Below are positions 10,499 to 23,776 of a stretch of 36,791 nt of DNA, piece by piece. Each line of letters starts with the position of its first letter. The first letter of the stretch is position 1. Position numbers and translations under genes: made by a program. Origin of the DNA: Clostridia bacterium (lineage in GTDB: Bacteria; Bacillota; Sulfobacillia; SLMV01); the NCBI GenBank assembly GCA_003552525.1, contig PUNF01000137.1, forward strand, positions 1 to 36,791, written 5' to 3'. The notes under the pieces are model-generated. The model worked only from the letters and a program-made list of their open reading frames with translations. It made no database searches and was not told the DNA's origin.

Positions 10499-10954
10499 TT
10501 AGAGGGCCACGCCCCACTCGAAGCTCTGTTTGAACACGCGCAGAAGGAGCGAGGTATTGATCTCCCGGATACCCTCAACCGCGCTGAGATCTTCCAAGAT
10601 GAACCGCGAAAGGTGTTCGTTGGTCGGAAACACTCCCTGGACGATAATATCAAAGTTCCCCGTAGCCAGGCCTACGTAGTGGAGTGGACGCAGCTTCGCG
10701 ATCTGCTCGGCAACCACCTTGCTCTTTCCCGGATCAACGTTCAGCGCAATGATGACCGGTGAACTGAACCCGATCTTAAACGGATCGGAGACCCCAGCAA
10801 TATGGATAATCCCCTCGTTGATCAATCTGTAGAATTTTCGCCGGATGGTCCCTTCGGTGACCCCGATCTCCTCTGCCATGTCGACGAACGACATGCGACC
10901 ATCCTTCTGCAGTAGCTCCATGACCCGTTTCTCCGTGCGATCCAGTTTGATCAT
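10499..10954 (-). CDS. Lrp/AsnC-family transcriptional regulator
   Basis: This is a 151-aa DNA-binding regulator. An N-terminal helix-turn-helix (about residues 3-50: LDRTEKRVMELLQKDGRMSF, then EIGVTEGTIRRKFYRL) is followed by an alpha/beta RAM domain (about 65-145) that binds small effectors and drives oligomerisation. ATG 10954 was chosen because AGGAGG at 10969-10964 is 9 nt upstream; the longer frame from 11038 would run through that site. It is the first gene of the lrp-selA-selD unit, directly behind a promoter with a candidate operator. Lrp regulators often respond to amino acids; a link between amino-acid status and Sec synthesis is suggested by position only. Feedback on its own promoter is likely for the family. 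Confidence 0.9.
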   Translation of the reverse strand: MIKLDRTEKRVMELLQKDGRMSFVDMAEEIGVTEGTIRRKFYRLINEGIIHIAGVSDPFKIGFSSPVIIALNVDPGKSKVVAEQIAKLRPLHYVGLATGNFDIIVQGVFPTNEHLSRFILEDLSAVEGIREINTSLLLRVFKQSFEWGVAL

Positions 10955-11064
10955 TTCCGTGAGCCTCCTCAGGTTCATTTGTTGTTCGGAGCATCCGGCG
11001 TTACCCGGGACCATTTGCGATCCGACCAAAACCCGCAAATACGTTAAACATAATGAATACTACG

Positions 11065-11094
11065 ATCATATCATTCATTCGCCGCATGAATCAA
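11065..11094 (-). promoter_or_regulatory. Promoter and candidate operator of the lrp-selA-selD operon
   Basis: On the minus strand TTGATT (11094-11089) and TATGAT (11070-11065) are 18 bp apart, a good sigma-A-type promoter in an A+T-rich patch about 110 bp before the lrp gene. The inverted repeat ATTCAT-N7-ATGAAT (11073-11091) covers the spacer and the edge of the -35, a plausible binding site for the Lrp-type product itself. Confidence 0.6.
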
Positions 11095-11129
11095 AACATA
11101 CTTGGGCAATCGTTGCATGATGCGAAATG

Positions 11130-11609
11130 CTACAGGGACCGATCCTGCGCGAGTAGCGCGGCCTTCATCTCCGTCCCGCCACCGAAGGCACCCAGCCCGC
11201 CTGCCGCGGGTACCACGCGTTGACATGGCACGAAAAGCGGGAAGGGATTGCGTGCCATCACCGTGCCGACCGCCCGGGCCGCCCGGGGGCTAGCAGCAGC
11301 ACATGCGACCTCACCATACGTGCGCGTTTCCCCCGGTGGTATTTCGGAAACGATCCGGCGCACCCGGCGGGAAAAGCACGTTCCCCTCGAAAATAGCGGG
11401 GGAATAGGGCCCGGGTGCACACCTGCGAAATAGCGTTCAATCCATCGGCGATAGCGTCCACCTTCCCCGGGAAGCTGCACACATGTCCCGAGTTCATGCC
11501 AAAAATCCGCGTCGGCATGACCGGGCAAGGTACTACGGTAGAGCATATCCTGGCAGAGAGCGAGCAATACCGGTCCCATGGGTGTTTCCACAGACGTCCA
11601 CCGCAACAT
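11130..11609 (-). CDS. ogt: Methylated-DNA--protein-cysteine methyltransferase
   Basis: This is a 159-aa suicide DNA-repair protein that removes alkyl groups from O6-alkylguanine. The C-terminal DNA-binding and active-site domain (about 78-155) shows FSRRVRRIVSEIPPGETRTYGEVA, AARAVGTVMARNPFPLFVPCQRVV and GLGAFGGG. The acceptor cysteine is C129 in PCQRVV, where the more common form is PCHRVV, and Gln in place of His is a known variation in some members. The N-terminal part (SVETPMGPVLLALCQD) fits the family. The start has GGAG 8 nt upstream. It lies after the terminator of the AOR operon and before the lrp promoter, so it is probably a single-gene unit. Ogt and AGT class names are not separable here. 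Confidence 0.9.
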   Translation of the reverse strand: MLRWTSVETPMGPVLLALCQDMLYRSTLPGHADADFWHELGTCVQLPGEGGRYRRWIERYFAGVHPGPIPPLFSRGTCFSRRVRRIVSEIPPGETRTYGEVACAAASPRAARAVGTVMARNPFPLFVPCQRVVPAAGGLGAFGGGTEMKAALLAQDRSL

Positions 11610-11661
11610 CGCACCATCTCCGATTTCAAAATTGCACCATCTTTCGACATTTTACAGCACT

Positions 11662-11725
11662 TTTCCCCGAAAGGGGAAGCGGCTTTCGAAAAAAACGGGG
11701 GTGAGAGCCAGTGGCTCCCACCCCG
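11662..11725 (-). terminator. Terminator of the AOR operon
   Basis: On the minus strand, 11725-11696 folds into a long G+C-rich hairpin (GGGGTG...GAGCC against GGCTC...CACCCC), followed at once by seven T (11695-11689). A second small hairpin, TTCCCC-GAAA-GGGGAA (11663-11678), lies just beyond. The first element ends about 32 nt from the AOR stop codon and before the ogt start. Confidence 0.85.
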
Positions 11726-11756
11726 CGCGACGTCTTCCGTCGTCCGATGCTTTGGC

Positions 11757-13616
11757 TTATTCCTCCACAACCCATTCCACGCCCAGTTCCGTTAACCGAT
11801 CGGGGGTGGGTCGCCCGAGATCATCCCAACCCATCATGTGATAGTAACTGATCATGGCTCGGTTGAACACCTTGCGATCGATCTCTTTGCCCTCGAGCGG
11901 ACCACGGGTGAAGGCCGTGAAGAACCGATCATTGAGCATATCATCGCGATCATCGAAGCCACAGCGCAGGTTGAATACCCGGGCCAGGGTTGCCGCGCGT
12001 TCTCCGGCCTTGACCAACTCGTACACGCTGGTATCCCAGCCGGTCACCGCGCGCATGGCATCCACGTATTCGCGTTTGGTCCAGGGCACGAACATGCAAC
12101 TTACGGTGGTGTTTTGCATGTGCCGCCAATTGCTTTCGTAATAGAATAGGCGCATCTTTCGCCCGGACAAGTCATCAATCGGCACGGGCTCGGTAATGCC
12201 GAAGACATTCGCAGCATCCGCGCTGTTCTCGAACGCAGTATCGTGCATGTTGTGCATGTGATCGGCGCCGGTGGGTGAAACGGCGTAGCCGACGCCCAGT
12301 GCATGCTTGAATCGCGGCTCGTGCATGGGGACTTCCAGGCCCTTGATGGTCAGGGCGAGCTCCAGCGCCTGGGGACCGATCTTCCTGGCCGCCTTGGCAG
12401 CACCCTCGGCCATCAAATCTCCGACACCCTCACGGTGGGCGATTTTTTCGAGCAGTGCAATCATGCCAGCGCTATTTCCAAAGCAAAGCTCGATCCCATC
12501 GAGATCCTCCTTGGACAAGACGCCACGTTCGAAGCACTCCATGGCGAAGCTGACGACCATGCCGGCCGAAATGGTGTCCATGCCCAGCTTGTTGCAGATC
12601 TCGTTGCCCTTGGAAATCGCCGCGAGATCATCGATCCCACAATTGGAGCCGATGGATCCCACGGTCTCGTATTCCGGGCCCCCGTAGCGCGGATCCACGC
12701 CACCGTATTCGTCGCACTTGACGACACGCTTGCAATAGATCGGACACGCGTGGCAGGTGTCCCGCTCAACGAGGATGGTCTCCGTCATGGTCGGACCCGA
12801 GATCTTCTCCGCACCCTCGAAGTTACCGAATTGGAAATTGTTCGTCGGGAGCCCACCCCCGGCATCGAGGGCCATGACGCCGCCGGGCGTACCGTGCTGG
12901 TGCAGGCTCTCTGCGCGTATCCCTTCCCTGACCTCGGTACCCATGAGACGGGCAAGTTCCATGACGCGATCGCGGTCGTCCAGTTCGACGTTGTTCGATC
13001 CCTTGACCGCGAGGGCGCGGAGATTCTTGGATCCCATGACGGCACCCATGCCCGTGCGCCCGGGGAAGTGGGTCAGGTCATTGATCACACAGGCGTAGCG
13101 GACGAGGTTTTCTCCCGCGATACCACACTGGGTAATCCGAATGCCGGGAACGTCCAACTCCTCCCGGATGAGATCCTCCACTTCACCCGTCTCCTTGCCC
13201 CACAGGTGACCCGCATCGCGAATCTCTACTTCTCCATCCTTGATCCACAGATACACGGGTGATGGCGCACGACCCTGGATGACGACGTGATCGAATCCGG
13301 CCTTTTTGAGTTCGGTCATCCAGTAGCCGCCCCCTTGTGCATCACCGAACCCTCCCGTGAGGGGCGATTTCGCACCCACGTTGTTCCGCCCACTTCCCGC
13401 TATCGGGGTCCCGGTGAGCGGTCCCGTGGCGAAGATGAGCCGGTTCTCGGGGCCCAACGGATCGCAATCGGTGGGCACCTCTTTCAGCAGGTAATAGGCG
13501 ACTACAGCGCTACCACCGAAATATGTGCGGTACCAGGACTCCGGCGGTTCTTCTATCCAGGTCTTACCCTCTGTCAGGTCTACTCTGAGTACCTTCCCAA
13601 CAAATCCCTTAGGCAC
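11757..13616 (-). CDS. Aldehyde:ferredoxin oxidoreductase family protein (tungsten/molybdopterin)
   Basis: This is a 619-aa cytoplasmic enzyme of the AOR family, which oxidises aldehydes to acids with ferredoxin using a tungsto-bispterin and a 4Fe-4S cluster. The N-terminal domain is typical: GKVLRVDLTEG, YFGGSAVVAYYLL, TGPLTGTPIAGSGR and SPLTGGFGDAQGGGYW. Cluster ligands are visible as C288, C291 and C295 in DTCHACPIYC and a fourth cysteine in NLRCGFDDRDD (about 552). Pterin-site segments such as GPEYETVGSIGSNCGIDD and PRFKHALGVGYAVSPTGADHMH are present. GTG 13616 follows GGAGG with a 7-nt spacer. It is the last gene of the nitroreductase-M55-DUF1893-AOR operon. The substrate is not determined; aldehydes from amino-acid-derived 2-keto acids would suit the surroundings. 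Confidence 0.95.
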   Translation of the reverse strand: MPKGFVGKVLRVDLTEGKTWIEEPPESWYRTYFGGSAVVAYYLLKEVPTDCDPLGPENRLIFATGPLTGTPIAGSGRNNVGAKSPLTGGFGDAQGGGYWMTELKKAGFDHVVIQGRAPSPVYLWIKDGEVEIRDAGHLWGKETGEVEDLIREELDVPGIRITQCGIAGENLVRYACVINDLTHFPGRTGMGAVMGSKNLRALAVKGSNNVELDDRDRVMELARLMGTEVREGIRAESLHQHGTPGGVMALDAGGGLPTNNFQFGNFEGAEKISGPTMTETILVERDTCHACPIYCKRVVKCDEYGGVDPRYGGPEYETVGSIGSNCGIDDLAAISKGNEICNKLGMDTISAGMVVSFAMECFERGVLSKEDLDGIELCFGNSAGMIALLEKIAHREGVGDLMAEGAAKAARKIGPQALELALTIKGLEVPMHEPRFKHALGVGYAVSPTGADHMHNMHDTAFENSADAANVFGITEPVPIDDLSGRKMRLFYYESNWRHMQNTTVSCMFVPWTKREYVDAMRAVTGWDTSVYELVKAGERAATLARVFNLRCGFDDRDDMLNDRFFTAFTRGPLEGKEIDRKVFNRAMISYYHMMGWDDLGRPTPDRLTELGVEWVVEE

Positions 13617-13645
13617 TGCGATCCCTCCAAAAGTCTACTCTCGAA

Positions 13646-14083
13646 TCAGCTTCCACAGATGAAGGCGCGGATGCGCTCTCGCGCCACGGCGGGGTCGTCG
13701 TTTTCCACGGCGATACGTTCCAGCGGACATAGGTCATCCCTCGACCGGTTGGCGATATGTTCGACCACACGCTCACCCTCGACATGGATGCCGGATCGCT
13801 CCAGGTGGTCTTGTGCATGCTCGCTGAGGAGTTCACCGAACACCCACCGCACGCCCGCTTCCGCGAGGAATAGTGCGGCGGCCTTGCCGATGACGCGATC
13901 TGCCACGGCCGACCCGATGAGATCGTCACCGAGGACGCCTATCGCGTCGAGGATGGGCTTGATTCCCGGTCCGTCTCCTCGCAGGATGATGCGGCCGCCC
14001 TTGACGACCACGAGTGATTCCTCAGAAGCCATCAACGTGTCAGCAGCGAGGCGAAGATCGGCCGGTCGGGTTGACTCGCTCAA
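13646..14083 (-). CDS. DUF1893 domain protein
   Basis: This is a 145-aa soluble protein matching my memory of the DUF1893 family: LRLAADTLMASEESLVVVKGGRII at the start, SAVADRVIGKAAALFLAEAGVRWVFGELLSE in the middle and NRSRDDLCPLERIAVEN near the end. Molecular function is not known; the fold has been grouped with deaminase-like proteins, which I recall but cannot verify here. The C-terminal CPLE cysteine and the N-terminal glycine-rich part are conserved-looking. The start is TTG at 14083, overlapping the stop of the M55 gene by 4 nt (TTGA), so it is translationally coupled. AOR follows 29 nt downstream. Confidence 0.85.
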   Translation of the reverse strand: MSESTRPADLRLAADTLMASEESLVVVKGGRIILRGDGPGIKPILDAIGVLGDDLIGSAVADRVIGKAAALFLAEAGVRWVFGELLSEHAQDHLERSGIHVEGERVVEHIANRSRDDLCPLERIAVENDDPAVARERIRAFICGS

Positions 14084-14922
14084 CTCTCCAACACCCCGCC
14101 CATTGCACTCCGCCCGAGGATCAACGCGCCCCAGAGTTTCTTAAACGCCGCGAGGTAGTCTCCATCGACGATTTCAACCGTCCGGGCATCGACCGGCTTC
14201 ACCGAGGGAAACAGGCAGGCCATGGCGGCAGAGGCGGTTGATCGGAAAGCAATCTCGAAGACGACGGGCAGTTCGACCTCGAGAGGTTTGACCTCTCCGA
14301 GGTGCGCCAATGCCCTTCGTGCGCCGTCCTCGATCATGCCCCGGGTGCGCGAGGGTGGGATGCAGTTTGACGCATGACGATCAAAGGAGTCCTTGACCGT
14401 AACGGTCTCGATACCGGGCAGGCGACACTGCGCTTCTCGCGCCACTTCCCGATCTCCCGTGAGCAAAACCACCGGAACACCCATGGCACCCGCGATGCCG
14501 GCATTGATCGCCGTTTCCCCGACACTCTCCCCGTTACAACGGAGCTCCTGCACCACCGATCCCATGATGGTGTGGTTAAGTAGTCCCTCTCCCGTACCCT
14601 CGCGTGCATGATAGGCGACGAAGAACACGGCATCGAATCCGGGTTCCAATCCTTGCATCTGCAGGAGGGGCTTATTGCTGCCACTAATGAGCCGGGCGCC
14701 TTCGGCCAGGTCCTCGATGAGTATGTTGGTCATCGGTCCGTGACTATCGTTTACGAGGACCTCGTCAGCACCGGCGGCGATGGCACCCCGGACGGCGGCG
14801 TTCACGTCGCCGGTCAAAAACTTCCTGCCGCGCTCGTATTCAGTGGTCTCCTTTGGCGAACACTGCTTGGTGCTGGTAATCCCACTGGCACCCTCCATGT
14901 CCGCCGAGATGAATATCTTCAA
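14080..14922 (-). CDS. M55 family D-aminopeptidase (DppA-like)
   Basis: This is a 280-aa zinc peptidase related to Bacillus DppA, which releases N-terminal D-amino acids from peptides and assembles as a ring-shaped oligomer. Diagnostic segments are KIFISADMEGASGI (zinc ligands D8 and E10), LVNDSHGPMTNIL, FFVAYHAREGT, LLNHTIMGSVVQELRCNG, GETAINAGIAGAMGVPVVLLTGD and AVKPVDARTVE-like C-terminal residues. Start TTG 14922 has GGAGG 11 nt upstream; the longer frame to 15075 overlaps the nitroreductase and lacks family similarity. It lies 26 nt after the nitroreductase and overlaps DUF1893. The D-peptide specificity is inferred from the family; some M55 members have other roles. Confidence 0.93.
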   Translation of the reverse strand: MKIFISADMEGASGITSTKQCSPKETTEYERGRKFLTGDVNAAVRGAIAAGADEVLVNDSHGPMTNILIEDLAEGARLISGSNKPLLQMQGLEPGFDAVFFVAYHAREGTGEGLLNHTIMGSVVQELRCNGESVGETAINAGIAGAMGVPVVLLTGDREVAREAQCRLPGIETVTVKDSFDRHASNCIPPSRTRGMIEDGARRALAHLGEVKPLEVELPVVFEIAFRSTASAAMACLFPSVKPVDARTVEIVDGDYLAAFKKLWGALILGRSAMGGVLES

Positions 14923-14948
14923 TGCTCGTCTCTCCTCCCCCTGGGAAA

Positions 14949-15464
14949 TCACATGTAGGTGATGACTTCTCCGGGTTTGCGCCGCTTCCTCGCGTCCGGA
15001 TGCATCCGCTTCGCACCCACCGGGGTCATGGCCACCGGGCGATGATGACGCGGCAAGTCCAGCAGTTGGGAGCAAGCCTCCTCGTCAAAGGCCCCGATCC
15101 AGCAAGTGCCCAGATCGTGGGCTTCTGCAACCAGCAGGATGTTCTGCATCGCCGCCGCCGTATCCTGCAGGCAGTATAGCTCGCGTCCCCGATCGCCATA
15201 ATGTTCGGCAGAACGCTCGGCATCGGCGCAGATCACGATCACCACCGGAGCCTCGGCGATAAAGGATTGTCCGCCGGCGACGTCGACCAAACCCCGCCGC
15301 ATGCCGTCATCCCTGACGACGTAAAAATGCCACGGCTGCCGATTTCCCGCACTTGGTGCCCAGCGGGCGGCCTCGAGTAGCTCTTCGATCACTTCTTCCG
15401 GGATTTCTTCCGACGCATAGCCCCGCACACTTCGTCTACGCTTGATAATGTCGATAAGGGTCAA
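14949..15464 (-). CDS. Nitroreductase family FMN protein
   Basis: This is a 171-aa flavin oxidoreductase of the nitroreductase superfamily. The N-terminal FMN phosphate-binding RRRSVRGYASEEIPEEVI and APSAGNRQPWHFYVV are clear; the middle AAAMQNILLVAEAHDLGTCWIGAF and C-terminal PVGAKRMHPDARKRRKPGEVITY complete the fold. The physiological substrate is unknown; such enzymes reduce quinones, nitroaromatics or enones. I chose TTG 15464 because it sits 8 nt after GGAGG, whereas the longer GTG at 15473 overlaps that site. It is the first gene of the operon leading into M55, DUF1893 and AOR. Nothing in the sequence says whether it works with AOR. Confidence 0.92.
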   Translation of the reverse strand: MTLIDIIKRRRSVRGYASEEIPEEVIEELLEAARWAPSAGNRQPWHFYVVRDDGMRRGLVDVAGGQSFIAEAPVVIVICADAERSAEHYGDRGRELYCLQDTAAAMQNILLVAEAHDLGTCWIGAFDEEACSQLLDLPRHHRPVAMTPVGAKRMHPDARKRRKPGEVITYM

Positions 15465-15581
15465 AGACCACACCTCCAGGTAATTGGCACACGCTCATAC
15501 ATATTCGGGTTTTCTTTATCCGGGGAGGTGATTCCTACCGAGGATCGCGTGATGGCAGCGGCGGGAACGGGGAAAAGGGTA

Positions 15582-15614
15582 CTCCCGGGGATCGGCCGAA
15601 GCCTTCCCCGGGAG
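15582..15614 (-). terminator. Hairpin after the 102-aa gene
   Basis: CTCCCGGGGA (15582-15591) and TCCCCGGGAG (15605-15614) form a perfect 10-bp stem, 11 nt after the stop of the 102-aa gene on the minus strand. The T-rich tail is weak (only TTTT a few bases later), so termination efficiency is uncertain. Confidence 0.5.
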
Positions 15615-15624
15615 CAAAGGCAAA

Positions 15625-15933
15625 TCATTCACCCCGCCAAAGCTTCGTGATCAAGGCATGGATCCGTGCAGCCACATCCGGATCCAAGGGGCCGATGTTT
15701 AATTGGTTACCAACGTGTTTTTTGATCCGAACCGTGTCGCCATCATCGCCCGGGATGATGTCACAATGGCTCATATCGCTAAAGTACACGGAAGTCTTGG
15801 CCTGGCCAAGCTTCTTCTGCTCGATCGCCGTGACACAATCCTCTTCGATAATCGCCTGGTTGCCGGCAGCCAACGCGTCGACCGTAAGCGGAAGCGTCTC
15901 TTCGACATTCTTCTCATCGGTGGCAAAGCCCAT
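15625..15933 (-). CDS. Hypothetical protein, 102 aa
   Basis: This is a soluble, acidic protein of unrecognised family. It begins MGFATDEKNVEETLPLTVDA, has AGNQAIIEEDCVTAIEQKK and a central YFSDMSHCDIIPGDDGDT, and ends NIGPLDPDVAARIHALITKLWRG. Two cysteines and one histidine (E-E-D-C, S-H-C) could bind metal but the pattern is not diagnostic. ATG 15933 has GAGGGGGG about 8 nt upstream; the longer frame to 16014 lacks a good ribosome site. It is a single gene ending in a hairpin and diverges from the 152-aa gene across a 420-bp region with a long inverted repeat. No function can be given. Confidence 0.7.
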   Translation of the reverse strand: MGFATDEKNVEETLPLTVDALAAGNQAIIEEDCVTAIEQKKLGQAKTSVYFSDMSHCDIIPGDDGDTVRIKKHVGNQLNIGPLDPDVAARIHALITKLWRGE

Positions 15934-16031
15934 GGGTTTTCCCCCCTCGATAATTGTGTGCTTCCATGATGACACACCAACCCGGGCACCCTCCCTGCCG
16001 GGGATGTATCGCACGCATGCGCCCTACGTCT

Positions 16032-16098
16032 ATATTCGACTGGGCAGGCGATGACTCCTTTGAAATTCGGCCACAAATCAGGGATATGCGTCGAATAT
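16032..16098. repeat. Inverted repeat ATATTCGAC / GTCGAATAT
   Basis: A perfect 9-bp inverted repeat at 16032-16040 and 16090-16098, with a 49-bp centre. It lies in the divergent region between the 102-aa and 152-aa genes. It could be paired binding sites for a regulator; no regulator gene is adjacent. Confidence 0.5.
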
Positions 16099-16175
16099 TA
16101 AGGAATCACCCTGTCATTTCGGGGGCTTCGCGTGCGTCACCGTATGCAAGCCGGCCGGGTGGAGGCCGCCGATGG

Positions 16176-16289
16176 GTGGTGTACAAAAAGATCGGCATCA
16201 TCGGAATTTCCGCGGACTTAGCAGGCCTCCCCTGGACCGAAGGGTACGCAACAGTATTTAAAGGAGTTTTGCGCTCGAGGCCGCGGTAG
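16176..16289 (+). CDS. Possible small ORF, 37 aa
   Basis: A GTG at 16176 is 10 nt after GGAGG (16161-16165) and opens a 37-codon frame whose product begins VVYKKIGIIGISADLAG and contains LPWTEGYATVFKGVL. The sequence looks protein-like and the initiation signals are reasonable, but the ORF is too short to judge by composition. It could be a real small protein, a leader peptide for the 152-aa gene that starts 64 nt after its stop, or a chance frame. Confidence 0.3.
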   Translation: MVYKKIGIIGISADLAGLPWTEGYATVFKGVLRSRPR

Positions 16290-16310
16290 GCAATTGCATC
16301 GTCGTTCGCG

Positions 16311-16331
16311 AAGATCCCCCCCGGGGATCTT
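16311..16331 (+). repeat. Perfect hairpin before the 152-aa gene
   Basis: AAGATCCCC (16311-16319) and GGGGATCTT (16323-16331) form a 9-bp stem with a 3-nt loop. It ends 22 nt before the ATG of the 152-aa gene and just before its ribosome site. No T-run follows, so it is more likely an mRNA leader structure than a terminator. Confidence 0.5.
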
Positions 16332-16353
16332 GGGTTGAGTGAGGGGGACGACC

Positions 16354-16812
16354 ATGTTCGAAGAAAACGCAGATACCCGCACCGTGACAATCTGCCTAAA
16401 TGGATGCCAGTACGGGTTTCAAATCGCCTCGGCCAATCAGCGGCGGGATCGATGCAGCATCGTGTTCGACGGGGACGTGCCACTATGCAACGTGATCGCC
16501 GGCATCCTCGCCCGCCCATTGTCGTCTTACGAGCTGGATGCGGTCGTGATCGAAGCACCGCGCATGGGCCCCGTGGCGCACGCCCTCGCGAGTTTCCTGG
16601 GGGTTGATAGGGTGATCTGCCTGGGCCGCGAAACCGCCCGCACTGATGTGGCCAATACGCGCCGGATGCTGCTGCTTCTCGAGCACGCCCCCGATCGGGA
16701 GGCGTTCGAGGGGATGGAGTGCTGGGTGCGAAGGATGGGGGCAGAGGCGAGGGCATATGCCGCCATCACCGCGGGAACAAACACCCCCGGATTGCACACC
16801 GCCCACTGCTGA
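16354..16812 (+). CDS. Hypothetical protein, 152 aa
   Basis: I do not recognise this protein. It has an N-terminal half with TVTICLNGCQYGFQIASA and FDGDVPLCNVIAGILARP, a central hydrophobic stretch DAVVIEAPRMGPVAHALASFLGVDRVICLG that reads like a Rossmann-type beta-alpha-beta unit, and a C-terminus TAGTNTPGLHTAHC. Six cysteines in 152 residues is high for this genome. ATG 16354 is 6 nt after AGGGGG, so the 5-residue-longer start at 16339 is less likely. It is preceded by a perfect hairpin and converges with minC. The gene ends TGC TGA TAG; since the organism makes Sec, a C-terminal Cys-Sec is conceivable but not supported (see rejected items). Confidence 0.65.
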   Translation: MFEENADTRTVTICLNGCQYGFQIASANQRRDRCSIVFDGDVPLCNVIAGILARPLSSYELDAVVIEAPRMGPVAHALASFLGVDRVICLGRETARTDVANTRRMLLLLEHAPDREAFEGMECWVRRMGAEARAYAAITAGTNTPGLHTAHC

Positions 16813-18631: not shown

Positions 18632-19723
18632 TTACCGGGTAAACCCGGACACCACCTCGGCATCCAGGGCCCGGATGATTTCGGTCAGCAGGTCCAGCGT
18701 ATGCTCGTAATCCTCGAGCGCAATGATGCCCGCCTGGGCGTGTATGTATCGGGTCGGTACACCGAGCACCACACTCGGAACACCACCGGCGTGCAGGTGA
18801 ATCTTACCCGCATCGGTGCTGCCTCCACCCATGAGGGATGTCTGTAGTGGAATATCGGCGGCTGCCGCACGCTCGATCACCAGGTCTCGAAACGGCAGGT
18901 TGGGCACCATGCTGCGGTCGAATACCAGCAGCGACGGTCCCCCGCGTAGCGTATCCGAGGCCCTGTCCTTGTCCCCACCCGGCACGTCCCCGGCGATGCT
19001 TACCTCGAGGGCAATTCCCACATCGGGGGCAACCATGTCGACGCTGGTCTGCGCCCCACGCAGCCCGATCTCTTCTTGGGCAGTTCCCACGCCGACCAGC
19101 GTTCCCGGGAAATCGCCATCGGCCAACCGGTGAAAGAGGTCGACGATCAGGCCACAACCTACCCGATCATCCCAGGCCTTGCTAAGGAGCAAATCCCCAT
19201 CGCCGATGCGGGCAAATGGGCTGTCGGGCACGATTGGATCCCCCACGCGGATTCCCATGTTTTCGCGGGCATCCTCCTCATCACGCGCACCGACATCGAT
19301 GAACATGTCCTTCGCTTTCACGACCTTATCGCGCTCCTTGGGTTCGAGGATATGCGGCGGCTTCGACCCGATGATCCCGACGTGGTCTCCACCAGCCGCC
19401 TTGACCACGACGCGATGGCCGAGAATGACCTGGTCCCACCATCCACCGAGGGGTTGAAACTTGATGAACCCCTCCGGGGTAATTCGCCCCACCATGAACC
19501 CGACCTCATCCATATGGCCCGCGAGCATGATCCTTGGGCCATCACTGGACCCGGGCAATTCAAAAATGACGCTGCCGAGCCCATCGTACTCCGGTTGTGC
19601 GATGTCTCCGATCCAGTCACTCATGACATCGGCCACTGCCATCTCGAAACCGGGAACACCCGGTGCCTGCGTGAGCATCTCGAGCATACGTATACGTGCC
19701 TGCCTATCCAATCCGGTCAACAT
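18632..19723 (-). CDS. M42 family metallo-aminopeptidase
   Basis: This is a 363-aa cytosolic dinuclear metalloprotease of the M42 family (tetrahedral aminopeptidases, YsdC or FrvX-like), which trims N-terminal residues from small peptides. Metal and catalytic motifs: LAGHMDEVGFMV (His, Asp), SKAWDDRVGCG, GTAQEEIGLRGA (catalytic Glu pair), IALEVSIAGDVPG and a late GGVPSVVLGVPTRYIHA with the last His ligand. The length is typical. ATG 19723 directly follows the stop of the AroM-like gene, with GGAGG at 5 nt, so translation is coupled. Substrate preference (acidic, hydrophobic or basic residues) differs between subfamilies and cannot be read here. Confidence 0.93.
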   Translation of the reverse strand: MLTGLDRQARIRMLEMLTQAPGVPGFEMAVADVMSDWIGDIAQPEYDGLGSVIFELPGSSDGPRIMLAGHMDEVGFMVGRITPEGFIKFQPLGGWWDQVILGHRVVVKAAGGDHVGIIGSKPPHILEPKERDKVVKAKDMFIDVGARDEEDARENMGIRVGDPIVPDSPFARIGDGDLLLSKAWDDRVGCGLIVDLFHRLADGDFPGTLVGVGTAQEEIGLRGAQTSVDMVAPDVGIALEVSIAGDVPGGDKDRASDTLRGGPSLLVFDRSMVPNLPFRDLVIERAAAADIPLQTSLMGGGSTDAGKIHLHAGGVPSVVLGVPTRYIHAQAGIIALEDYEHTLDLLTEIIRALDAEVVSGFTR

Positions 19724-20428
19724 CTATCCCTCCCGTCTCGCCGGCGCGATTGCCCGGACGAGGAGTGCGGTTGCATGGGCCGTAGCGAGGGAAGCGGGTA
19801 GCGCCGGGAGGCGTGCCCGTTCCGCCACATGGTCGGCCATGATTCCAGTATAACCCATACAGTTCATGGCAATGATCTCGACACTGGTCCGGGAGAGCAC
19901 CCGGGCGGCGCGATCGAAGTCCGTCGGATCGCGATCGAAATCATACGGTGACGCCGCAACCGTCACGACCCGTCGCGAATCCACGCCAAACAACGTCTTT
20001 GCTGCGGATTCCTGTTCGGGCCTTGGTACCATCACACCGATCGGGCCACGCACGAGGCCGCGCACGAGACCTGGGAAGATCTCTCGGGGGACGATGATAC
20101 GAGAACCGGGCAGCGCGAATCCGGGGGTACCCGTACAAAGCAGTACGACGGGATCCGCACCACTTTGGACGAGAAAACGAACGGCCTCGCACAGGAGCCG
20201 GCGTACACGTACCGGCTCGAGACAGACTTCGCGACCATTCCGAAGACGCGTTACCAGCACATCATCTCCGGTCGGCTGGAGGGCTGTTCGCCCGCGCTCA
20301 TCGAGGCCATCCAGCGCTCCGCGCTCCAGTACGGGGATATCGCGTCCCCATACCTCCTGCATCAAGGGAACGACATCGGAACGCGGTGATTCTCCGATTG
20401 TGGCAACCCCTATTGGCCGCAGCGTCAC
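19724..20428 (-). CDS. AroM family protein
   Basis: A protein of about 234 aa, similar to E. coli AroM, a family without a settled function that resembles Asp/Glu racemase-like folds in its C-terminal half. Typical segments are PIGVATIGESPRSDVVPLM at the N-terminus, VLLCTGTPGFALPGSRIIVP in the middle and IIAMNCMGYTGIMADHVAE near the end, with a cysteine in each of the last two (possible catalytic pair; inference). The start is uncertain: the frame is open to ATG 20500, but family similarity begins at about GTG 20428, whose GGAGG is only 1 nt away; CTG 20422 would have the better spacing. It leads the minus-strand run with M42, tdh and minC, and diverges from the first MATE gene. Confidence 0.82.
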   Translation of the reverse strand: MTLRPIGVATIGESPRSDVVPLMQEVWGRDIPVLERGALDGLDERGRTALQPTGDDVLVTRLRNGREVCLEPVRVRRLLCEAVRFLVQSGADPVVLLCTGTPGFALPGSRIIVPREIFPGLVRGLVRGPIGVMVPRPEQESAAKTLFGVDSRRVVTVAASPYDFDRDPTDFDRAARVLSRTSVEIIAMNCMGYTGIMADHVAERARLPALPASLATAHATALLVRAIAPARREG

Positions 20429-20569
20429 CCCTCCACTCGTGGTTGCGCTCCACCTTTTCGTGTGTTCGCCAATCCGGGGTGACAACCCTGCCGTCATCAT
20501 TTTGATCGTCGTCGTTTCTCATGTACACCGCTTGAAGGACCCCGGCATAAACTTCGAGTCCCGAAGGGA

Positions 20570-20598
20570 TAGACGACGTCCCTTCCGGATGCTACAAT
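20570..20598 (+). promoter_or_regulatory. Promoter of the first MATE gene
   Basis: TAGACG (20570-20575) and TACAAT (20593-20598) are separated by 17 bp, a plausible sigma-A-type promoter about 30 nt before the TTG start and directly ahead of the GGGGAGG ribosome site at 20614-20620. It lies in the 200-bp gap divergent from the AroM-like gene. Confidence 0.5.
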
Positions 20599-20629
20599 TG
20601 GAGCATCTTTTCCGGGGAGGCGACCCCAC

Positions 20630-22066
20630 TTGCGATGGAAAAAACCTGGGGTGCGTGACGCTGCCGGTTTCCCCGGTCCCCCCCCCGCGGGACGCCCCAT
20701 CCCGATTCCTACCGAGCATGCGGAAGAGCCTTATAATGATCAACTGATAAAAAAGGGGATCGTCAGCCTCGCGTGGCCGGCCATCACCGAGATGGTCCTC
20801 ATGACGATCACCCAGATCGTCGACATGCTCATGGTGGGTCGGCTCGGTCCGGCGGCTATCGCCGCCGTTGGCATCGCGAACCAGCCATCGTTCTTCGTGA
20901 TGGGCGTGTTCCAGGCGATGGCCGTGGGTACTACCGCCGTCGTGGCGCGTACCATGGGAGCGGGTGATGCTGTATCCGCGGGCAGGACACTCAAGCAATC
21001 CATCCTCCTGGCGCTGGTCACCGGCGTCGTATTCACGGGCTTCTTCCTGGCCATTAGCCCCCTGGTCATCCGCTTCATGGGTGCGGGACCAGGGGTGTAC
21101 CCTTCTTCCCTCGCATACTTCCGCGTCGTCGTCGGGGGTTTGATCGTCACCGCACTCACCGTGATCCTCACGGCCGCACTCAGGGGGGCCGGCGACACCC
21201 GCACACCGATGGTTGTTCGCGGGGTGGCAAACCTGCTGAACATCTTGCTGAACTACTTGCTGATCTTCGGTGCCTTCGGTTTCCCGCGTCTCGAGGTGAT
21301 GGGGGCCGCCACGGGAACCGTACTGAGCCGGGTGTTCACCGTGGTTGTGTTGTTCTTGCTCATCCGGAGTAATCGGACGGTCCTGCATTGGACTGGCCCC
21401 CTACTCTCGAGATGGGACATGGCCCTCATCCGTCGAATCGTCCACGTGGGCTTCCCGGCGGCCGCAGAACAGGTAATCATGCGAAGCGGGCAACTGCTCT
21501 TTGTGCGCACGGTCGCCTCGATGGGAACGGTAGCGATGGCTGCTCACCAGGTCGCGATGAACATCGAATCCCTAAGCATCATGCCGGGGTTTGGATTCTC
21601 GGTGGCGGCCACCACCCTGGTGGGCCAACACCTTGGGGCTGGCCGCCCGACGTGGGCGGCACGCGCCGGCACCTTGACGTCTCAGGTGGCCGTGCGCGCG
21701 ATGACGGTGATGGGCATCCTGCTCTTTCTCTTCGGGCCTTCCCTGGTGCGTTTTTACACTTCAGATCCGGGGGTGATCGCCCTCGGGGGAACGGCGCTTC
21801 GTATCCTTGCGCTCGCCCAACCCTTTTGTGCCATCAGCTTCACGATGGCCGGGGCACTCCGCGGAGCCGGCGATACCCGTTTCGTCATGCTCAGCACCGC
21901 CGTCGGCATCTGGGTGCTCAGGCTCAGTACCGCCCACATCCTCGGCATCATGATGGGACTCGGGGTTGCCGGGGCCTGGATCGGATTGGTGACGGATCAG
22001 CTGGCGCGTTCGTTTCTGACGCGCCGGCGTTTCCGGGGTGGAACGTGGAAAAGGATCCGGATCTAG
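20630..22066 (+). CDS. MATE family efflux transporter (first copy)
   Basis: This is a 478-aa inner-membrane exporter with about 12 membrane segments. MATE proteins expel cationic drugs or metabolites using a Na+ or H+ gradient. Repeated signatures show both bundles: SLAWPAITEMVLMTITQIVDMLMVGRLG near residue 50 and its pseudo-repeat VGFPAAAEQVIMRSGQLLF, with AALRGAGDTRTPM and AGALRGAGDTRFVM at matching places in each half. The start is TTG 20630, with GGAGG 9 nt upstream. The cytosolic N-terminus is long (about 45 residues) and proline-rich. It begins a plus-strand run with the D-acylamino-acid deacylase and a second MATE of similar sequence, which suggests an old tandem duplication. The substrate is unknown. 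Confidence 0.92.
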   Translation: MRWKKPGVRDAAGFPGPPPAGRPIPIPTEHAEEPYNDQLIKKGIVSLAWPAITEMVLMTITQIVDMLMVGRLGPAAIAAVGIANQPSFFVMGVFQAMAVGTTAVVARTMGAGDAVSAGRTLKQSILLALVTGVVFTGFFLAISPLVIRFMGAGPGVYPSSLAYFRVVVGGLIVTALTVILTAALRGAGDTRTPMVVRGVANLLNILLNYLLIFGAFGFPRLEVMGAATGTVLSRVFTVVVLFLLIRSNRTVLHWTGPLLSRWDMALIRRIVHVGFPAAAEQVIMRSGQLLFVRTVASMGTVAMAAHQVAMNIESLSIMPGFGFSVAATTLVGQHLGAGRPTWAARAGTLTSQVAVRAMTVMGILLFLFGPSLVRFYTSDPGVIALGGTALRILALAQPFCAISFTMAGALRGAGDTRFVMLSTAVGIWVLRLSTAHILGIMMGLGVAGAWIGLVTDQLARSFLTRRRFRGGTWKRIRI

Positions 22067-22159
22067 CATGTATGTTGCAGGGGAACGCAGGCCCGTTGTC
22101 AAAACGAAGAGCGTCCAAGCAACCACTGTAGTCAGTCGTCGTGGAGAGGGGAGCATGCA

Positions 22160-23776
22160 ATGCCCGACCTAGTGATCACCAACGCAACGATCGTGGACGG
22201 CCTCGGGAATCCTGCGTTCCCGGGCGCGCTGGGAATCACCGGTGATACCATCACCGAGATCTGGCGCGACCCCAACCCGGAAGGTTTCGGGGAACCTTCC
22301 GACACCATAAACGCCTGGGGGCAGGTGGTGTGCCCGGGGTTTGTCGACATTCACACCCACTCCGATTGGGGTATCTTCGAACATCCGGGGGCCGGTTCTT
22401 CGCTTCTGATGGGAGTCACCAGTGAGATCGGCGGCAATTGCGGCACCAGCCTGGCACCGACCTCCGCTGCCCTAGAGCGATACCTCAAAAGCATTGGCCG
22501 CAAGAGTCCCGAAAGACCCGGGGATATCGGCGAATTCCTGGATCGCGTGGATGCGATACGACCCGGGAATAACCAGGGAACCTTCCTGGGCCAGGGGGCC
22601 ATTCGCGCCCTGGTCATGGGCGATGCGGTCCGTTTCCCGCGGGATGAGGAGCGCGATCTCATGATTCGCCTGGTGCGGGAATCCATGGAACTGGGTGCCT
22701 TCGGCATGAGTACAGGCCGGGCCTACGTTCCGGGGTGTCACGGGGGCTTCGCCGAAATACTCGCTCTCACCGAAGAAATTGGACGCCACCGCGGCCTATA
22801 CACCTGCCACATCGCAGACCAGTGGGCCAACATCCACCGGGCCGTGCGGGAAGTATTGGAACTTGGCCTGTGCACCCACACGCCCGTCCAAATTGCCCAT
22901 CTGAAAGTTGTCGGTAAAGATCACTGGGGGCGGATGGCCGAAGTCCTCGCCCTCATCGAAGATGGCCGGGACGCGGGCGTCGATGTGGCCGCGGATGCCT
23001 ATCCGTACGATTATGCAGCCATCGCCCAGTTGCGGGATCGTCTGCCCCCCCGGATGCGAAGTCTCGCCGAGGGCGAGCTGCTGGATCTCCTCGGTATCGA
23101 TGCGGGCGTCGAAGAAATCCGGCGTGGGTGGAGAGAAAACCCCGACTACGGATCGGCTCGCCTCCCCGGACTGGGCGTCGTCTGGTGCGCGGAAACCCCT
23201 GATGCGATCGGCAAGGACCTCGGCGAGCTGGCCGTGGAGTACCGGACCGACGTCGCCGGCGCCGTGGCCCGCCTGCTCCGCTCCAATGCCCTCGGGGTCA
23301 AGGTTGCCGGCATCATGGATGAGGATGACCTCCGCACGGCACTGTGTCATCCGCTGGTGGCAATCGGAAGCGATTCCGGGCTGCGAGATCCCCGGGAAGA
23401 CGAGGCGGCGAATCCGGCGGCTTCATCGGTTCACCCCAGGGAATATGGCACTTTTCCCCGGGTTCTCGGGCGGTACGTGCGCGAAGAAGGGCTGCTGACA
23501 CTCGAAGAAGCCATCGCCAAGATGACCTCTCTACCGGCGGAACGTATCGAATTACCCGACCGGGGCAGCATCACCAGAGGCCATCGGGCTGACCTGGTAG
23601 TCTTCGACCCCGATACCATCATCGACCTTGCCACGCCGGAAGATCCCATGCGCCCACCCGCGGGCATATCCCGGGTGATCGTGAACGGCCGCATTGCGGT
23701 ATCCGATGGCAAACTCACGGGGCAGCGGGCCGGAGGATCACTCCGTGACTTACAGGGTCGCGTGATATACGGATAG
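22160..23776 (+). CDS. N-acyl-D-amino-acid deacylase family amidohydrolase
   Basis: This is a 538-aa metal-dependent hydrolase of the amidohydrolase superfamily, closest by eye to D-aminoacylases, which cleave N-acyl-D-amino acids to D-amino acid and carboxylate. The zinc motif HTHSD is at 65-69 (H65, H67) after CPGFVDI; the bridging cysteine typical of this subfamily is in GGNCG (C94). Further family segments are GAFGMSTGRAYVPG, YTCHIADQWAN, VQIAHLKVVG, DAYPYDYAA and IGSDSGLRDP, and a final ADLVVFDPDTI strand. The ATG follows a GGAGAGGGGAG ribosome site. It lies 93 nt after the first MATE and about 60 nt before the second. Related enzymes act on D-glutamate, D-aspartate or dihydropyrimidine-like substrates, so the exact substrate is open. 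Confidence 0.9.
   Translation: MPDLVITNATIVDGLGNPAFPGALGITGDTITEIWRDPNPEGFGEPSDTINAWGQVVCPGFVDIHTHSDWGIFEHPGAGSSLLMGVTSEIGGNCGTSLAPTSAALERYLKSIGRKSPERPGDIGEFLDRVDAIRPGNNQGTFLGQGAIRALVMGDAVRFPRDEERDLMIRLVRESMELGAFGMSTGRAYVPGCHGGFAEILALTEEIGRHRGLYTCHIADQWANIHRAVREVLELGLCTHTPVQIAHLKVVGKDHWGRMAEVLALIEDGRDAGVDVAADAYPYDYAAIAQLRDRLPPRMRSLAEGELLDLLGIDAGVEEIRRGWRENPDYGSARLPGLGVVWCAETPDAIGKDLGELAVEYRTDVAGAVARLLRSNALGVKVAGIMDEDDLRTALCHPLVAIGSDSGLRDPREDEAANPAASSVHPREYGTFPRVLGRYVREEGLLTLEEAIAKMTSLPAERIELPDRGSITRGHRADLVVFDPDTIIDLATPEDPMRPPAGISRVIVNGRIAVSDGKLTGQRAGGSLRDLQGRVIYG

Follow-up and report, generated by a model that had tools for sequence, protein, structure and literature searches.

A family-specific cluster of nitroreductase, M55 D-aminopeptidase, DUF1893 and tungsten-type aldehyde:ferredoxin oxidoreductase genes in Clostridia genomes

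Introduction

Why should a D-aminopeptidase, a DUF1893 protein and a tungsten-type aldehyde:ferredoxin oxidoreductase (AOR) be encoded side by side? The question is raised by a 36,791-nucleotide stretch of contig PUNF01000137.1 from a Clostridia bacterium assembly (GCA_003552525.1), referred to here as the window, in which these three genes follow a nitroreductase-family gene between positions 11757 and 15464. The original prediction took the four genes for an operon with a shared terminator, which might serve the breakdown of a D-amino-acid-containing peptide or its aldehyde product. We find that the arrangement is family-specific: it is conserved in the family of the source genome and was found in this one family only, and its component protein families are all known and ordinary. 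The reading that we favor is peptide or amino-acid catabolism in which the AOR oxidizes a derived aldehyde, and we assign a probability of roughly 0.55 to the full scheme set out below, in which the cluster serves as an operon, specific to this family, for the catabolism of peptides or amino acids. We found no description of the four-gene operon in the paper collection that was searched.

Architecture of the cluster and identity of its proteins

All four genes lie on the minus strand and are read from 15464 to 11757. The first encodes a nitroreductase-family protein of 171 amino acids (14949..15464; TTG start with GGAGG upstream) and is followed, after a gap of 26 nucleotides (nt), by the gene of a 280-residue M55 D-aminopeptidase of the DppA family (14080..14922; TTG start preceded by the purine-rich sequence GGGGGAGGAG). 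The gene of the DUF1893 (TM1506) protein, 145 residues long (13646..14083; TTG start), overlaps the M55 gene by 4 nt, and the AOR gene (619 residues, 11757..13616; GTG start with GGAGGG upstream) begins after a further gap of 29 nt. The close packing first read from the sequence, with 26-29 nt gaps and a 4-nt overlap, is thus borne out by the coordinates. About 32 nt beyond the AOR stop, a terminator-like hairpin (11698..11724, minus strand) consists of a 12-pair stem and then the T run CGTTTTTTTC. This stem is the longest among the 8 terminator-like sites observed in 10900-16400, where 4.7 are expected from shuffles. No terminator-like site follows the AOR gene on its own strand in the three relatives scanned (loci L087, L088 and L089), so the predicted shared terminator is demonstrated for the source genome only. 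No promoter-like site was seen near 15464; the two sites of the region both lie at ~11045-11094, against 2.7 expected. The four genes may be co-transcribed.

The domain assignments score far above the Pfam cut-offs: PF00881 for the nitroreductase (140.7 bits, E = 6.9e-41), PF04951 for the M55 protein (316 bits, E = 2.5e-94), PF08973 for the DUF1893 protein (102.7 bits, E = 1.5e-29), and both AFOR_N (PF02730, 257.6 bits) and AFOR_C (PF01314, 402.2 bits) for the AOR. The PF00881 domain makes the first protein a member of the nitroreductase family; none of the NCBIfam equivalogs reached its cut-off, no subfamily was assigned, and the PDB relatives (best 60 of 86) are varied nitroreductases.

The M55 protein aligns with Bacillus subtilis DppA (1hi9) over 262 residues (1-262) and keeps all of the motifs SADMEG, NDSH, YHA, NHT and VGE, which we take to be the metal-binding and active-site motifs of peptidase family M55. 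It differs from DppA in scoring below the DppA equivalog cut-off (206.6 bits against 430) and in having no adjoining peptide-transporter gene in the window. The AOR is homologous over its full length, in both domains, to the enzymes of known structure: residues 6-613 align with the Pyrococcus furiosus AOR 1aor (E = 7.5e-124), and 9mqx matches with E = 5.9e-121. In the alignment to 1aor it keeps the CxxCxxxC, GPEYE, DTIS and DH motifs and the distal cysteine; presumably the CxxCxxxC and distal cysteines are the [4Fe-4S] ligands, and the glutamate and histidine catalytic. Unlike these relatives, the cluster AOR has no adjoining MoaD or ferredoxin gene, and in what we take to be the second pterin motif of the family an asparagine replaces the aspartate.

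Conservation within the family

Conservation was assessed in a sample of the source order comprising eight draft genomes (G000-G007) of one family and five genera; the relatives are Clostridia metagenome-assembled genomes (MAGs), whose isolate codes we read as pointing to soda-lake sediment, the probable habitat of the family. A simple gene caller picked shadow frames and missed some DUF1893 frames, so presence and neighborhood counts were taken from tblastn.

The order nitroreductase-M55-DUF1893-AOR is found in five genomes (G000, G001, G002, G005 and G006). The most loosely attached gene is that of the nitroreductase, which an inserted S9 peptidase gene separates from M55 in G005 and which is followed by a gap of ~440 nt in G006. 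The G004 contig opens ~413 bases before M55 and carries the M55-DUF1893-AOR trio. In each of the other two genomes one core gene is missing from the cluster. G007 has nitroreductase-DUF1893-AOR, with the called DUF1893 and AOR frames 14 nt apart; its M55 relatives all lie elsewhere and reach at best 41% identity. In G003 the cluster reads nitroreductase-M55-AOR, M55 and AOR lying 26 nt apart, and DUF1893 sits on a different contig. In all, AOR adjoins DUF1893 in 7 of the 8 genomes, M55 lies within the AOR cluster in 7, and the trio is complete in 6. Matches within the core of the relatives are spaced by ~50 nt or less, and the gene set is still kept at identities down to 64% for AOR and ~40% for DUF1893. 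As the set is conserved across the family, the arrangement does not occur only in this genome, which would have counted against the prediction. DUF1893 presumably entered the cluster within this family; in G003 it would either have been lost from the cluster or have been absent from it all along.

Could the four genes be neighbors simply through the general synteny of a small family, with no common pathway? The genes flanking the cluster, for O6-methylguanine-DNA methyltransferase (OGT), an Lrp-type regulator and SelA (with M42, TDH and MinC at L088), are likewise found in conserved order in several relatives, one genome lacks M55 in the cluster and another lacks DUF1893 there, and the nitroreductase is set apart in G005 and G006. 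Plain synteny would not lead us to expect a core that stays tightly spaced while DUF1893 diverges to ~40% identity, nor that the remaining pair stays close where one core gene is absent (26 nt in G003, 14 nt in G007). We regard synteny without a shared function as rather unlikely.

Distribution outside the family

A neighborhood search for DUF1893 beside AOR and M55, proposed as a check of the prediction, gave a divided answer: the trio is present in six of the eight family genomes but at none of the 66 DUF1893, 52 AOR and 49 M55 loci outside the family. The DUF1893 loci come from a phylum sample of 398 genomes, 68 of which have a DUF1893 match; the source genome and G279 (with a sub-cut-off match) were left out. 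No relative of AOR, M55 or the nitroreductase was found at any of these 66 loci. We note that flanks were often short, with at least 3 kb on both sides at 46 loci and ~8 kb at 37, so neighbors may fall off the contig. Nor do AOR and DUF1893 co-occur in the sample: AOR is present in 43 of the 68 genomes with DUF1893 and in 185 of the 330 without (p = 0.29). On both counts we rejected DUF1893 as a general partner of AOR, nor, by the 66 loci, is it one of M55. Outside the family, DUF1893 stands alone in varied settings or is fused to other domains, whereas here it is a cluster gene adjoining AOR.

The AOR loci, 60 taken from named genomes, include 8 of the family (6 cluster copies and 2 sister copies) and 52 more distant ones. 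At these 52, many of them short, neither DUF1893 nor M55 was found (0/52), and two (L121 and L122) have a partial nitroreductase relative near AOR. The 49 M55 loci (29 short and 20 longer ones, some sites being covered by both) showed no relative of DUF1893 or of the nitroreductase. At one of them (L185, genome G288) an AOR with 32% identity lies ~5 kb off, with an aminotransferase relative in between, and a D-aminoacylase relative occurs at five of the short and two of the longer M55 loci.

A candidate catabolic operon

The genes found beside AOR within the family point to its likely role. Downstream of the sister AORs in G005 (L092) and G004 (L093), which are 63-64% identical to the cluster AOR, lie genes for a beta-eliminating lyase, with 292 bits to PF01212 in L093, and for an amidohydrolase. 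The lyase looks like a threonine aldolase, an enzyme that yields acetaldehyde, which is an AOR substrate. L093 adds an S9 peptidase downstream, and L092 has an amino-acid-kinase-family fragment upstream. Together with the S9 peptidase gene inserted in the G005 cluster, these neighbors favor peptide or amino-acid catabolism. To this extent the idea of peptide breakdown with an aldehyde product stands, while a D-amino-acid substrate in particular is not supported.

In the scheme that we propose, the M55 enzyme would cleave small peptides and so free their amino acids, probably D-residues among them. Enzymes from outside the cluster would then convert the carbon skeleton of such an amino acid to an aldehyde, by a threonine-aldolase or a 2-oxo-acid route, and the AOR would oxidize this aldehyde to the acid, with ferredoxin as electron acceptor. 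A companion redox function would fall to the nitroreductase-family protein. DUF1893, with a deaminase-like fold that lacks the zinc motifs, would be an accessory factor, ligand-sensing or protein-modifying, and not a pathway enzyme. The scheme draws support from the tight spacing, from the terminator in the source genome, from the conserved order within the family and from the M55 and AOR active-site positions, which are kept. The aminotransferase beside another AOR of the source genome and the peptidase and pyridoxal-phosphate enzyme genes beside an M55 paralog, described below, also speak for it.

Several points weigh against the scheme. All conserved cases stem from one family of eight draft genomes, in which the cluster lacks M55 once (G007) and DUF1893 once (G003). 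The order of the flanking genes is partly conserved too, so that plain synteny may account for some of the linkage. No aldehyde-forming enzyme is encoded in the cluster, and we infer the substrates, the co-transcription, the order of the steps and the role of DUF1893. Doubt would also fall on the function of the AOR itself should the pterin cofactor truly not be made, as discussed below. The cluster offers a conserved setting in which DUF1893 can be studied through a few co-expressed proteins.

The setting of the other AORs bears on a further statement of the prediction, that AOR is usually found with pterin or ferredoxin genes. Beside two other AORs of the source genome lie genes for a class-III aminotransferase, which follows its AOR, and for a ferredoxin-like protein. 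In three other AOR neighborhoods of this genome no pterin gene was recognized by eye, and one ferredoxin-like gene was seen. The statement fits a subset of AOR loci described in PMC1779556. A further locus of the same genome (L150:5180-9937, minus strand, contig C30) carries an M55 paralog together with peptidase-like genes (M20-like by eye) and genes for a family S58 peptidase and a pyridoxal-phosphate enzyme.

The DUF1893 protein

Hardly any literature on DUF1893 was found. The protein matches TM1506 of Thermotoga maritima (1vk9) with E = 2.4e-10, and both carry a CPxE motif. Its predicted structure (mean predicted local distance difference test score 93.9) matches 1vk9 with Z 20.0 over 137 residues and the Borrelia burgdorferi structure 9e9a with Z 9.8, in line with a common Pfam family and fold. 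Further fold matches are AICAR transformylase (Z 12-14), RibD and the cytidine and dCMP deaminases (Z 10-11), and FdhD-type structures (2pw9, Z 11.2; 4pde, Z 9.2). With regard to the FdhD family, the fold similarity is Z 9-11, and Pfam at E <= 0.001 reports PF08973 only. Zinc-dependent cytidine deaminases carry the motifs H/CxE and PCxxC; the DUF1893 protein lacks these zinc motifs and has no PCxxC.

Across 74 aligned DUF1893 sequences (7 operon copies and 67 others) G66, C119 and E122 never vary, and 73 of them have D62. The conserved positions (D62, G66, S87, N112, R113, C119, P120 and E122) form a D...G plus CPxE signature. All 7 operon copies keep D62, G66, C119, P120 and E122, and thus they are not degenerate. 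Fusions, verified by Pfam, link DUF1893 to the C-terminus of a GHMP kinase resembling homoserine kinase (L051:7017-8396 and L065:6990-8426) and to the S component of an energy-coupling factor (ECF) transporter, PF12822 (L018:7977-8942, minus strand, and L021:7299-8411, plus strand). By length only, L052 and L074 resemble the GHMP kinase fusions and L019 and L023 the ECF fusions.

One possible function is regulatory: DUF1893 might ADP-ribosylate itself or its operon partners and so control the pathway. According to a review that cites Iyer et al. (PMC8946771), some TM1506 proteins are ADP-ribosylating enzymes that modify themselves on aspartate. The near-invariant D62 could be such an aspartate, which is a guess, and the fusions to GHMP kinase and ECF S components are what one might expect of a regulatory domain. 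They fit a ligand-binding domain equally well, and we consider ADP-ribosylation improbable.

A second possibility is that DUF1893 helps to mature AOR by handling its pterin cofactor, much as FdhD serves formate dehydrogenase as a cofactor chaperone. The matches to 2pw9 and 4pde, the invariant C119 and E122 and the adjacency to AOR in seven of the eight family genomes would agree with such a role. However, AICAR transformylase and several deaminases match the fold equally well or better. The lack of co-occurrence with AOR, the 66 outside loci without a nearby AOR and the presence of DUF1893 in Thermotoga maritima, where a control search for AOR gave no match, also speak against it. Including the cofactor counts given below, a maturation role appears very improbable.

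Pterin cofactor genes

The most surprising by-product of the analysis is the question of how these AORs obtain their cofactor. Family genomes have 2-9 matches each to the C-terminal AOR family, 46 across the eight genomes, some of them partial. Only few have genes of the pterin pathway: the MoaA C-terminal domain was found in 1/8, MoaC in 1/8 and MoeA in 2/8. G006 (contamination 7%) holds all three, and G005 holds MoeA and, by eye, a MobA-like gene, which suggests that some members of the family do have the pathway. No match to MoaA, MoaC or MoeA was found in G000, G001, G002, G003, G004 and G007. At 86-92% completeness, independent chance loss in all six is unlikely; a shared binning bias or MAG incompleteness may lie behind the missing genes. 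None of the three was matched in the source genome (92% complete), which casts indirect doubt on tungsten-bispterin binding by its AOR, as judged from gene content.

With 2-9 AOR matches and none of the three genes, the tungsten-type enzymes of these six genomes look 'orphan'. PMC6147048 describes a category of 'orphan' molybdoproteins, pterin-dependent enzymes encoded in organisms that lack a complete cofactor pathway. The family resembles these organisms but differs in that six of eight genomes of one family are affected, each with 2-9 AOR matches. Such a state is uncommon but not unique, since in the phylum sample MoaC is present in 192 of 228 AOR genomes and missing from 36. Nor is the enzyme type cofactor-free by sequence, given that MoaC is present in 23 of 35 genomes, taken from the 52 loci, whose AORs are 43-54% identical to the cluster AOR. 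The change from aspartate to asparagine in the second pterin motif, shared by 22 of these 35 more distant AORs, was tried as a sign of cofactor loss and rejected: MoaC is present with asparagine in 13/22 and with aspartate in 10/13.

One result would favor a part for DUF1893 in AOR maturation. Of the 84 families that carry AOR, 11 have no MoaC in any sampled AOR genome; DUF1893 is present in 7 of these 11, compared with 12 of the 73 others (p = 0.002). Against this, 8 of the 11 rest on a single genome, and genomes lacking MoaC have DUF1893 more often whether or not they carry AOR (35/135 against 33/263, p = 0.001, hand-counted), so that lifestyle may explain the enrichment. We give very little credence to the more specific idea that most of the family runs its several AORs on pterin from neighbors or from an unrecognized route, with DUF1893 helping to load the operon AOR. 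A family with many tungsten-type AORs, most of its genomes having no detected pterin genes, makes the 'orphan' tungstoenzyme question concrete.

Neighboring genes and other features

Past the terminator lies the OGT-like gene (11130..11609, minus strand; PF01035), which is also next downstream in G001 and G003-G007; the G002 contig stops short of that point. Genes for the Lrp-type regulator, SelA and SelD (named by sequence) follow further downstream in the window. Rfam at gathering scores and a tRNA scan of the window returned no match and no tRNA. The region 18632-23776 near the cluster encodes an M42-like peptidase (by sequence), an AroM-family protein and an amidohydrolase, which is D-aminoacylase-like by sequence and assigned by Pfam as amidohydrolase only. 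A 105-residue protein (15625-15942, minus strand) without a Pfam or NCBIfam match has a counterpart upstream of the L087 cluster with 57% identity. The SelD frame (8007 to ~9080, minus strand) reads KAG, TGA, GCKMGPK, with the in-frame TGA at what we take to be the usual selenocysteine position. Given this TGA and the adjoining SelA gene, SelD is probably encoded as a selenoprotein.

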